Positions 57,540-61,187 of a stretch of 64,000 nucleotides of DNA are shown one piece after another. Within the stretch, counting starts at the first letter, position 1. Every line of letters starts with the position of its first letter. A program made the translations under genes and the position numbers. Below the pieces are notes generated by a model. It made no database searches. It was not told where the DNA came from and was given only the letters and a program-made list of their open reading frames with translations. The stretch is from the NCBI RefSeq assembly GCF_024494595.1, contig NZ_JANHDI010000013.1, forward strand, positions 1 through 64,000, given 5' to 3'. Source of the DNA: Halobellus rarus. Lineage in GTDB: Archaea > Halobacteriota > Halobacteria > Halobacteriales > Haloferacaceae.

Positions 57540-58361
57540 TCACGCGGGCGCGCTGATCGTGAACAACAGGACGTTGTGCGTCGCCGGTCCGAACCCGACG
57601 GCCGCGACGAAGCCGAGCAGCAGCCGCGCCTCCGTCGGGTCCGTCTCGACGAGGTCGGCGAAGAGCCACACCACGAGCGAGGCGACCGCGATCTTGACCA
57701 AGACGAACAGCCACCCCGACCCCAGCATCGGTTCGGTCGGTAGCCCGGCGGCGAAGTCGACGATGAGCCGCGAGAGCGGGGTTCGCTCGCCGAACCCCAG
57801 GAGATCGATCCCGGCGGCCGTCGAGACGCCGTCGAGAACGTGCGCGAAGACCGCGAAGGCGCCGAGCGCGCCGGTGGCCCGGGTCTCCGGAGCGACGCGG
57901 GTGAGCGCGAACCAGACGACGGCGGCGAGGATCGCGGCGACGACGAGGCTGCCTGCGGGGACGACCGGAGACAACGTGCCCGCGGCCGCACCGACGGCGA
58001 GGACGCGGACGACGGCGACGAGCGCGAGGACGCCGCCGACGAGCGCGAGGGCGCGGGCGACGCGGTCCGCGTTGAGGACGGCGTCCGCGACGAGCCAGGC
58101 ACCGACGGCGGCGACGGCCACGGTGACGTACACGGCGGGCGTTCCCGCGAGCGGGCGAGCGAGCGTCGGGAGCGCATCCTCGACGTAGAGGACGTGCAGT
58201 GCGGACCCCAGGGCCATCCAGGGCGCTAAGGCGAGGACGCGAGCGGTCGTGACTGCCGGACGTCGTCGGAGCGCGGCGCGTGCGACGACCGCGGCGGCGG
58301 CGAGGAGCGCCACGAGGTACGTCGGGGGCGGTAGCGCGAACCCTTCCGGGAGTATCGCCAT
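57540..58361 (-). CDS. DUF63 family membrane protein
   Basis: This 273-residue integral membrane protein has eight or nine helices. The C-terminal signature is FAHVLDGVSTAAGIDLLGFGERTPLSRLIVDF, then GSGWLFVLVKIAVASLVVWLF and GFGPATHNVLLFTI. DUF63 occurs only in archaea, mostly Euryarchaeota, and has no proven function. Conserved His and Asp within the membrane suggest an enzyme or transporter. The ATG at 58361 (MAILPEGFALPPP) is the family start. No operon partner is apparent. Confidence 0.87.
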   Translation of the reverse strand: MAILPEGFALPPPTYLVALLAAAAVVARAALRRRPAVTTARVLALAPWMALGSALHVLYVEDALPTLARPLAGTPAVYVTVAVAAVGAWLVADAVLNADRVARALALVGGVLALVAVVRVLAVGAAAGTLSPVVPAGSLVVAAILAAVVWFALTRVAPETRATGALGAFAVFAHVLDGVSTAAGIDLLGFGERTPLSRLIVDFAAGLPTEPMLGSGWLFVLVKIAVASLVVWLFADLVETDPTEARLLLGFVAAVGFGPATHNVLLFTISAPA

Positions 58362-58517: not shown

Positions 58518-59774
58518 TTACTCGGGTGTCCGGCATTTCTGCCGGATCGGGTTCATCACGAGCCAGACGGTGAGTACCGACAGCACGAGGACGAGAGTCA
58601 CCGACGAGACGACGTAGGCGAGCGTGATCCGCTGGAAGACCATATTTATGAGTTGGCCGGTTCCGACGATCACGCCCAGGATACCGAAGGCCGACAGCGA
58701 CACCTGTTTTCCGGCCTGATACCGCATATCTCGACGTATCTGAATACTGTCGCCGACGCTGATGTTCAGGTTGTCGCGCTCGGTGCTCGGGATCCGGACG
58801 GACAGCGACTCCTCCTCGCCGTAGGAACTGTCCGGCGTGGCCTCGGGTTCGAGGTCTGTGTCCTCCTCCCAACCGGACTGACAGCGGACGTTGCGCCGTC
58901 GCTTCTCGTCCCGCAGCCAACTCAGGAGCACGCGGTCGTTCTCCTCGATGCCGAGCCCCTTCATCGCGTCCTCGTTCATCCGGACGACGTTTCGGCCCTC
59001 GTCCCGGTCGTACCCCGGCAGGACGCGGAAGTTCGAGTAACTGTAATCGACGAACCGCCGGCCGAGCCACTTCGAGGCCCGTTCCAGGATTCCCTCCGCC
59101 TCGTCGACTTCGGTGAGTATCCGGAGTCTGACCTCGTTGGTGTCGCCCTCGTCTTTCGAGTCCACGCGGAGGAGCTTCCGGGTGATGCCGTTGATCCTGA
59201 TCGTGTTGTCTTTCCGGCCCTTGTGATCGTACGTTTCGATCGGCAACTGGATTCGAGCGCCCGTCTTCGGGTTGATCAGTTCACAGACGTCGCCCCGCTG
59301 CAACGCGTCCGTATCGTCCATGTCGCCCGCGGAGATGTATCCGGCGAGCCCTTCGGTCGTGATGTCGCGATCCTCCTGCTCCCACGCCGAGACGCGGTGG
59401 ACGGTCAGGTCGTCCAGCGTCTCCGTGTCGCACTCGCGGATCACGACCTCCATATTCTCGTCCTCGTCGCCGTCGTCCGGATCGAGGCCGATCTCCCGCT
59501 GGAGCCTGGTCCGGATGCAGGCCCACGGCCGACCCTCGTCCGTCGAGAACTCCGCGACGTCGTGATCGTCGCTGAAAGCGATGATCTGCGCCAGTGTCCC
59601 GTCGGCGTCCGCTTGCGGGGCGGACAGCTCGACGTACTCGTACTCCTCGGTGTCGTCCAGCCCCGAGAGCGTCGACTGCGGGACGATCGCCGCGTACCGG
59701 AACTTGTCGCCCTCTTCGAAACAGTGGTTCCGGAAGTCCGAAATCGTCTTCGAGACTACTCTCGCACCGTCCAC
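58518..59774 (-). CDS. Membrane-anchored protein with two Cdc48-N-like barrels
   Basis: This is a 418-residue protein without a recognised family name. Residues about 150-220 (RGDVCELINPKTGARIQLP ... IRINGITRKLLRVDSKDEGD) and about 258-350 (RMNEDAMKGLGIEENDRVLL ... SVRIPSTERDNLNISVGDSI) both follow the double-psi-barrel pattern of the Cdc48/p97 N domain or AbrB-like barrels. Two membrane helices follow (358-379, 384-408) with a basic C-terminal tail. The first 130 residues are a separate alpha/beta region. It overlaps the upstream gene (a GGCT-like protein) by 19 bp, so they are co-translated. No ATPase domain is present. Domain calls are by eye. Confidence 0.75.
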   Translation of the reverse strand: MDGARVVSKTISDFRNHCFEEGDKFRYAAIVPQSTLSGLDDTEEYEYVELSAPQADADGTLAQIIAFSDDHDVAEFSTDEGRPWACIRTRLQREIGLDPDDGDEDENMEVVIRECDTETLDDLTVHRVSAWEQEDRDITTEGLAGYISAGDMDDTDALQRGDVCELINPKTGARIQLPIETYDHKGRKDNTIRINGITRKLLRVDSKDEGDTNEVRLRILTEVDEAEGILERASKWLGRRFVDYSYSNFRVLPGYDRDEGRNVVRMNEDAMKGLGIEENDRVLLSWLRDEKRRRNVRCQSGWEEDTDLEPEATPDSSYGEEESLSVRIPSTERDNLNISVGDSIQIRRDMRYQAGKQVSLSAFGILGVIVGTGQLINMVFQRITLAYVVSSVTLVLVLSVLTVWLVMNPIRQKCRTPE

Positions 59775-60445
59775 GCTGAATCACCCGAGATCTCGTCGTT
59801 CTCCGCGACCGTGTTGAAATCGGTCGCGTCAGTCGAGTCGTACGCGGTTTCGTACGTGCTCGCACAGAAGTCCCTGTAGAACTCCGTGGCCACCGCCGAG
59901 CCGTACGTCTCTCCGATCATCATAATGCCGTTGACGATCCGGCTGTGATACGTCCCGTTTCGCGGTTTCTCCGCGGTGATGTCTGCACTCTCGGCGCTGT
60001 TTGCGAACAATCGGACCTCCGAAATGTCGGTGACGTCGTACTCGTCGAAGCGGTCCGGATCGACGTAGTACTCCAGTTCCGGGTCCCGAACGCCGGTGTA
60101 GTCGTACGGGGTCTCCGTCTCCCTGATCTGGTTTTTCTCCTCCGCGGTCAGCCCAAATACGAGGACGCCGTTGATCCAGTCGTCGGGATCGTCGGTCCGG
60201 ACGGCCTCCAACATCGTCCCTCCCCGATCGGATTCGAGCGAGTAGTACCGGCGGAATCCCCGTATCTTCGCGGGGACGTACACGATGCGCTCCCGTCGCT
60301 CCTCCCACTTCTCCAGGGCGTTCGCCCTGACGTTCCGCTCGGTGTTGCCCTCGTAGACGTCGTCGAGCGTCGGATCGACGTTCTCGAACCTGGATATCAG
60401 ACTCGTCGGGAGGATCAGACTGCCGTACCCAAATATCGGTGTCAT
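59756..60445 (-). CDS. Gamma-glutamylcyclotransferase-like (GGCT fold) protein
   Basis: This 229-residue protein begins [20 protein letters not shown], the GYGSL nucleotide- and glutamyl-binding motif of GGCT/AIG2-like proteins. Strands [31 protein letters not shown] and [12 protein letters not shown] follow, and then a helical tail with [19 protein letters not shown]. The family cleaves gamma-glutamyl or amino-acyl amine bonds, releasing 5-oxoproline. Asp/Tyr content and codon use are a little AT-richer than in neighbours. It is first in an operon with the double-barrel membrane protein; the pairing is the odd feature. Confidence 0.8.
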
Positions 60446-60536: not shown

Positions 60537-61187
60537 ATGAACAGAACGGAGTTCGCCGCGCGCATCGACCACACGGTGCTGGGGCCGACGACGACGCTCG
60601 ATGCCGTCGAGACCGTCCTCGACGAGGCGGAGGCGTACGGGATGAACGCCTGCATCCCGCCGTGTTACGTGCCGGAGGCGGCGGCGTACGCGCCCGACGT
60701 GACGCTCGCGACGGTCGTCGGATTCCCGCACGGCCAGCACTCGACGGCGGCGAAGCACGGCGAGGCCGTCGACGCCTGGCAGTCCGGCGCGGACGAGGTG
60801 GATATGGTGCTCAACGTCGGTCGCCTGAAGGCCGGCGAGGACGAGGCCGTCGCCGCCGACGTCGCGGAAGTCGTCGCGGCGGTCCCCGTCCCGGTGAAAG
60901 TCATCATCGAGACGGCGCTGCTGGACGACGAGGAGACGCACCGCGCCTGCGAGGCGGCCGCCGACGCCGGTGCCGACTTCGTGAAGACGTCGACCGGATT
61001 CGCCGACGGCGGGGCCACCGTCGCCGACGTCGAACTGATGGCGGAGTACCTGCCGGTCAAAGCCAGCGGCGGGATCGGATCCTACGAGGAGGCGACGGCG
61101 ATGCTCGACGCGGGCGCGGAACGGATCGGCGCGTCGTCCGGCGTCGAGATCGTCGAGGGGTTCCCGGACGAGGACGACCCCCGATGA
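60537..61187 (+). CDS. deoC: Deoxyribose-phosphate aldolase
   Basis: This 216-residue DERA cleaves deoxyribose 5-phosphate to glyceraldehyde 3-phosphate and acetaldehyde. Motifs seen are [56 protein letters not shown], the Schiff-base lysine region [12 protein letters not shown] and [21 protein letters not shown], and the end [28 protein letters not shown]. The ATG at 60537 is the family start. It is a nucleoside-salvage partner of the distant nucleoside phosphorylase in function, not in operon. Confidence 0.96.

Follow-up and report, generated by a model that had tools for sequence, protein, structure and literature searches.

A predicted gamma-glutamyl cyclotransferase-like protein and its double-psi barrel membrane partner: a recurrent, sometimes fused gene pair in archaea

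Gene organization of the locus

The stretch of DNA analysed here (the window, 64,000 nucleotides from Halobellus rarus, genome G000 of our set) carries on its minus strand two overlapping reading frames of 229 and 418 amino acids, followed on either side by genes that lie outside the unit (Table 1). A sequence-only reading of the window had described the frames as a GGCT-family enzyme sharing 19 bp with a membrane protein, and both frames and their overlap are present as described. The shorter, upstream frame encodes the GGCT-like protein (N terminus: [11 protein letters not shown]) and the longer one a barrel-repeat membrane protein, which we refer to as DPBB-TM. Across the junction the sequence runs ...GGTGATTCAGCGTGGACGG..., with GGTGA placed 6 bases 5' of the GTG start and within the upstream gene, which suggests that the two genes may be translationally coupled. 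Frame overlaps of similar size are found in the pairs of G010, G008, G099, G124 and G337.

Table 1. Coordinates of the gene pair, its predicted domains and candidate residues, its flanking genes, and the GNAT genes beside DPBB-TM at other loci
Feature	Position	Strand	Basis or remark
GGCT/AIG2/ChaC-like putative cyclotransferase gene, 229 aa	59756..60445	-	ORF, AF2 model, fold matches, orthologues
Barrel-repeat membrane protein (DPBB-TM) gene, 418 aa, GTG start	58518..59774	-	CDC48_N E 2.5e-11, PDB fold matches
19-bp overlap of the two frames	59756..59774	-	GGTGA precedes second start
Y7-G8-S9-L10 motif, predicted gamma-glutamyl-binding loop of the GGCT fold	60416..60427	-	Conservation, PMC7022552
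Glu111, candidate catalytic acid/base	60113..60115	-	Invariant in 16 relatives; aligns with Glu of AIG2-like 2jqv
Domain 1, N-terminal, barrel-like (residues ~1-122)	59409..59774	-	AF2 strand-helix-strand pattern similar to other domains
Domain 2, predicted double-psi barrel nearest PanD (residues ~119-222)	59109..59420	-	Profile search
Domain 3, predicted Cdc48-N-type double-psi barrel (residues ~243-351)	58722..59048	-	Profile search
Predicted transmembrane helix 1 (residues ~350-379), RRDMRY ahead	58638..58727	-	AF2 helix 350-379, hydrophobicity ~358-380
Predicted transmembrane helix 2 (residues ~385-414), RQKC at end	58533..58622	-	AF2 helix 385-414, hydrophobicity ~382-412
Cys298 in domain 3	58881..58883	-	Conserved in 15/16 relatives
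Cys414 at membrane edge	58533..58535	-	Conserved in 13/16 relatives
DUF63 membrane protein, left flank of insertion, outside unit	57543..58361	-	PF01889; abuts deoC where congeners lack the pair
deoC aldolase, right flank of insertion, outside unit	60537..61187	+	PF01791; present in 17/17 genomes of the genus
Convergent GNAT genes at other loci	L050 10722-11306 (G168), L051 10925-11455 (G286), L052 10743-11078 (G285)		

The upstream protein has a predicted GGCT fold

Neither Pfam, NCBIfam, PHROGs nor PADLOC contained a match to the GGCT-like protein, and the curated GGCT families PF06094, PF13772 and PF04752 gave none at E<=1; its relative in G518 is matched weakly by AIG2_2 (E 0.17). The AF2 model (pLDDT 75, pTM 0.79) has as its best five PDB fold matches YkqA, ChaC2 (twice) and GGACT (human and mouse), all of them GGCT-fold proteins, with E values of 0.017-0.27 that fall short of the usual cut-off and probabilities of 0.97 and 0.89 for the top two; the PDB matches ranked under these five are unrelated low-probability noise. 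When BFVD was searched with the same model the best match was a GGCT AIG2-like protein (E 3.6e-5), and GGCT matches were returned at a probability of 1.00. Profile searches of the PDB with broader alignments placed the solved AIG2-like protein 2jqv first, weakly (E 0.0041 and 6e-4), and comparison of the family profile with haloarchaeal GGACT was likewise weak (probability 30%). Two other matches were set aside: influenza haemagglutinin HA2 (E ~0.004, PDB profile search with 7 close relatives) is attributed to chance on an acidic helical segment, the broader profiles putting AIG2-like first, and Peptidase_M17_N_1 matched one member of the family and was absent from the others. Ordinary GGACT genes, sought with PF13772 and PF06094, occur in 3 of 30 relatives and were not found in G000.

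Conservation within the family is concentrated on a small set of residues. Across 16 GGCT-like relatives, with identity down to ~21%, G8, S9 and L10 are invariant and Y7 is kept in all but the protein of G307, which has Ile where the motif Tyr is expected; Y114, Y127 and Y166 are invariant together with Glu111. For GGCT enzymes the conserved active-site residues include Tyr-Gly-Ser, one Glu and three Tyr, and the Tyr6-Gly7-Ser8 motif named for ChaC2 is the counterpart of Y7-G8-S9 (PMC7022552). By sequence alignment rather than superposition, we infer that the Tyr-Gly-Ser motif, Glu111 and the three Tyr of the window protein correspond one-to-one to that active-site set.

The GGCT assignment is therefore supported by the predicted fold, by the weak AIG2-like profile match and by conserved active-site-like residues, and in this respect the sequence-only reading holds, with the probable catalytic Glu kept though the curated families give no match. 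Taken together, the model and the residues make it probable that the protein is catalytically active. It might instead be catalytically dead or regulatory and bind a gamma-glutamyl ligand, its membrane partner serving as a signalling or transport regulator, as its great divergence from the curated GGCT families and the replacement of the motif Tyr in G307 would allow; but the Tyr-Gly-Ser loop, the Glu and the three Tyr are otherwise retained at ~25% identity, and we consider such a binder quite improbable. As to the direction of the reaction, it had been suggested that the enzyme could either remove or form a gamma-glutamyl linkage. Known GGCT-fold enzymes cleave with cyclisation and do not form gamma-glutamyl linkages, with which the second of these options is at odds.

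The downstream protein has three predicted barrel-like domains and two predicted membrane helices

CDC48_N matches DPBB-TM in three stretches (E 2.5e-11; 44.1 bits against a Pfam cut-off of 35.1), and each of the 10 proteins in the first family alignment is matched as well. The AF2 model (pLDDT 70, pTM 0.69) returned 131 PDB fold matches at E<=0.001, including 7dg9 (E 2.9e-7), and among the matches listed all are DPBB/Cdc48-N chains. Three soluble domains can be delimited, of which domain 3 gave the strongest profile matches, to designed Cdc48-N-type DPBBs (E 6.7e-13) and to the Aeropyrum Cdc48 DPBB (E 4.9e-12). For domain 2 the best 15 PDB profile matches are PanD (best E 5.7e-5), and the pyruvoyl-forming Ser of PanD is not conserved at the corresponding position (alignment A4). 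Domain 1 had no match to solved structures in the profile search. Only one of the three domains, domain 3, is clearly Cdc48-N-like. The two Cdc48-N-like barrels claimed earlier are in this sense borne out by structure prediction and by the CDC48_N profile, although a third, N-terminal domain had been missed and the second barrel lies nearest PanD, not Cdc48.

Hydrophobic segments and AF2 helices agree on the two C-terminal membrane helices that had been read from the sequence. Positive charges flank both of them (RRDMRY before, RQKC after), and by the positive-inside rule the barrels would very probably lie on the cytoplasmic side. Cysteine is otherwise rare in these proteins, yet Cys298 and Cys414 are strongly conserved (Table 1).

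No AAA ATPase domain was found in DPBB-TM with Pfam or NCBIfam, the NCBIfam CDC48 model scoring 13.7 vs 802 bits. It had been proposed that the protein might draw the archaeal Cdc48 ATPase to the membrane, a notion for which a Cdc48-N-type barrel within a membrane protein is the point in favour. However, Cdc48 itself uses its N domain to bind clients and cofactors, so that the presence of this domain elsewhere suggests shared clients and not recruitment; to our knowledge this barrel is the substrate- and cofactor-binding part of Cdc48 and is not known as a Cdc48-binding module. With only one of the three domains clearly Cdc48-N-like, recruitment finds no support and we give it very little credence.

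The two genes are paired across two archaeal classes

A single-protein search of genome contigs gave no match and a family alignment search found only Halobellus captivus. When 391 haloarchaeal genomes were searched, the DPBB-TM family was found at 15 loci in 14 genomes (a further entry, from G035, is an ordinary Cdc48 ATPase and was discarded), and the GGCT-like family at 16 loci in 15 genomes, 6 of these being solo. A GGCT-like gene adjoins or is fused to the barrel gene at 9 of the 15 DPBB-TM loci (both loci of G000, and G008, G010, G099, G124, G337, G128 and G307). The pairs overlap or nearly abut in G000, G008, G010, G099, G124, G337 and G218, where the overlapping downstream neighbour of the GGCT-like gene is a divergent barrel-membrane protein, as well as in G518 of another class; in G128 and G307 the two genes are convergent neighbours. 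On contig 21 of G000 the GGCT-like and barrel parts are fused in one 653-aa frame (L020 9361-11319, minus strand). Among 58 genomes of that other archaeal class only two barrel-membrane genes were found, each downstream of a GGCT-like gene; the pair is clear in G518 and tentative in G538, where the GGCT-like gene is recognized by its YGS motif together with a weak match between profiles (E 0.0077). Weak protein matches in G077, G047 and G048 had no pair within their 20-kb surroundings.

The pairs span Halobellus, three other haloarchaeal families and another archaeal class. Chance adjacency at the observed rate is not credible, given a few thousand genes per genome, and the association first seen in the window is upheld by neighbouring genes in many lineages and by the one-gene fusion. 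The main groups are common to the GGCT-like and DPBB-TM trees, with a Mantel r of 0.83 (p 0.0001), or of 0.62 (p 0.0008) without near-duplicates, on 8 distinct pairs.

Two further observations were made around these loci. Approximately 500 bp downstream of the pair in G518, behind an opposite-strand MBF1-like gene, lies a gene resembling the proteasome-activating nucleotidase PAN (L116 4803-6032). In three genomes of genus g67 (L068, L070 and L073) the solo GGCT-like genes share a conserved neighbour that encodes ~217 aa and lies close to an ftsZ-like gene, a hint that this GGCT subfamily has another, distinct role.

Barrel genes without a GGCT-like neighbour

Eight of about 20 DPBB-TM genes lack a GGCT neighbour (G003, G006, G081, G168, two in G171, G285 and G286), so the GGCT-like partner is not obligatory for DPBB-TM. 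A GNAT acetyltransferase adjoins 5 of these 8 genes. In G168, G286 and G285 it belongs to one subfamily (48-57% identity) and is convergent beside the barrel gene, in two different genomic contexts, while in G003 and G006 (L025 and L026) the GNAT is a different one and divergent from DPBB-TM. GNATs are common, and the latter arrangement may be due to chance. These findings suggest that the partners of DPBB-TM are exchangeable. One could go further and envisage a hitherto undescribed archaeal module, in which a membrane-embedded double-psi barrel array would be an interchangeable platform for small modifying enzymes (GGCT-like in most lineages, GNAT in others) that modify one common target, on the inner side of the membrane, by gamma-glutamyl or acyl chemistry, but the odds seem to us to be against it.

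The surroundings of the solo genes are varied. The barrel gene follows lysA in G168 and dapF, by 2 bp, in G286, that is, what we take from their sequences to be lysine biosynthesis genes (L050 8196-10704, L051 8829-10912); the interval between lysA and the DPBB-TM gene of G168 contains no called dapF. The second, solo DPBB-TM gene of G171 is beside an MvaI/BcnI-type restriction endonuclease and a putative DNA methylase (L117 6541-8802). In G081 the gene is divergent from two that resemble DgcN and DgcA, presumably of the D-glutamate/dipeptide epimerase pathway (L028 8947-10757). Relative to the family profile, the DPBB-TM genes of G128 (L027 9143) and of the G171 plasmid (L048 9275) have an in-frame stop and may be decaying.

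The pair is a clean insertion between deoC and a DUF63 gene

In G000, G008 and G010 the pair lies between deoC and the DUF63 gene, whereas in G002, G003, G004, G005, G006, G007 and G013 these two are direct neighbours, separated by a short intergenic stretch like the joined flanks. The pair is thus a clean insertion. Its GC contents are 0.606 and 0.632 against a mean of 0.680 (sd 0.031) for the 41 called genes of the window, the GGCT-like gene having the lowest value of all 41; this AT-richness, from which transfer had been suspected earlier, is real but modest. Given the empty sites in congeners and the lower GC, horizontal transfer fits. No integrase or target duplication was identified at the insertion. 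Relatives of DPBB-TM are present on plasmids of Halobacterium hubeiense and Haloarcula marina, and viral contigs held no copies of the pair.

Such a distribution invites the view that the pair serves in defence or conflict, as a sporadically inherited sensor or enzyme whose two-helix membrane effector would, once triggered, damage the cell or stop a virus. The patchy occurrence (about 15 of 391 haloarchaeal genomes), the clean insertions at unrelated sites, the lower GC, the plasmid copies of the barrel gene and the MvaI/BcnI restriction enzyme adjoining one solo barrel gene are all in keeping with it. Most copies are, however, flanked by housekeeping genes, PADLOC has no match for either protein (only an insignificant SspH, E 0.057) and copies are absent from viral contigs, and we regard a defence role as doubtful.

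Proposed function and substrate

The reading we prefer, with a probability of roughly 45%, is that the pair forms one functional unit, a gamma-glutamyl cyclotransferase tethered to the membrane on its inner side. In the GGCT-like protein the Tyr-Gly-Ser loop would bind the gamma-glutamyl group, and Glu111 would drive cyclisation to 5-oxoproline with release of the attached amine or amino acid. DPBB-TM, with three barrel-like domains in the cytoplasm and two membrane helices, would anchor the enzyme and present or recognise its substrate, in a manner that may be likened to the double-psi barrels in Cdc48 and VAT. A scaffold or recognition role of the barrels is, by itself, somewhat favoured.

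Gamma-glutamylcysteine (gammaGC) is the main haloarchaeal thiol and nearly universal in haloarchaea, while about 2-3% of genomes have the pair, which makes a housekeeping role in thiol metabolism unlikely and a specialised or conditional use more likely. Since all 15 carrier genomes tested encode a GCS2 (GshA-type) ligase and haloarchaea are reported to contain gammaGC at millimolar levels, 4 mM in H. salinarum (PMC7278568), gammaGC is the first candidate substrate; the conserved Cys298 and Cys414 of DPBB-TM also speak for it. That it is indeed the substrate, and that the pair helps to provide thiol or cysteine close to the membrane, is a guess, possible and offered with caution. The synthesis and reduction of gammaGC in haloarchaea are described by the same review, in which a cyclotransferase is unmentioned (PMC7278568). 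That gshA is located 2.6-8 kb from the DPBB-TM gene in G006 and G003 might have pointed to a functional link but is probably due to chance; in G000, gshA lies ~70 kb from the fused copy, on a contig that differs from that of the window pair.

The enzyme could also act on proteins: the barrels would bind clients as Cdc48-N does, and the GGCT-like partner would free them of a gamma-glutamyl modification or crosslink ahead of their disposal or repair at the membrane. GGACT, which acts on gamma-glutamyl-lysine, is among the fold matches of the GGCT-like protein, but we know of no gamma-glutamyl protein modification established in haloarchaea. Domain 3 resembles Cdc48-N, a substrate-recognition domain (PMC11188069), and the PAN-type ATPase gene is located ~500 bp downstream in G518, yet protease or ATPase linkage is absent at all other loci, the PAN neighbour having been seen once, and protein clients seem to us unlikely.

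Whichever substrate a tethered cyclotransferase would serve, archaeal gamma-glutamyl metabolism is poorly charted, and a conserved, sometimes fused enzyme-membrane pair is a concrete candidate for it. A Cdc48-N-type barrel outside the ATPase and in a membrane protein also bears on the reuse of this recognition domain. Laboratory haloarchaea allow expression and assay of both genes, making the question directly testable.

Comparison with known systems

No description of the GGCT-like/DPBB-TM pair was found in the open-licence literature, and other literature may hold one. With the GGCT-fold cyclotransferases (ChaC2, GGACT, YkqA and AIG2-like) the window protein shares the predicted fold, the N-terminal YGS(L), a conserved Glu followed by a Tyr, and further conserved Tyr residues. 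It differs from them in lacking a curated family match, in belonging to an archaeal subfamily whose window clade has a C-terminal extension, and in its co-transcription or fusion with a barrel membrane protein.

Domain 2 of DPBB-TM has its best solved-structure matches in aspartate 1-decarboxylase (PanD), with a common N-x-x-x-G-x-R stretch; the pyruvoyl-forming Ser of the self-cleaving Gly-Ser of PanD is not conserved, and consequently decarboxylase activity would not be expected of this domain. Halo_adaptin ESCRT-like systems likewise have a haloarchaeal VAT/Cdc48-N barrel outside Cdc48, but theirs belongs to a Vps4-like ATPase accompanied by adaptin-like partners (PMC11188069), and neither that ATPase nor such partners are present here. 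The N-terminal double-psi barrel of Cdc48 and VAT (CDC48_N, PF02359) is strongly matched by domain 3 in sequence and in fold, whereas DPBB-TM lacks the AAA ATPase domains and instead has three successive barrel-like domains followed by two C-terminal membrane helices. The folds of the parts are already known; what is new is their combination, its natural fusion and its spread over two archaeal classes.
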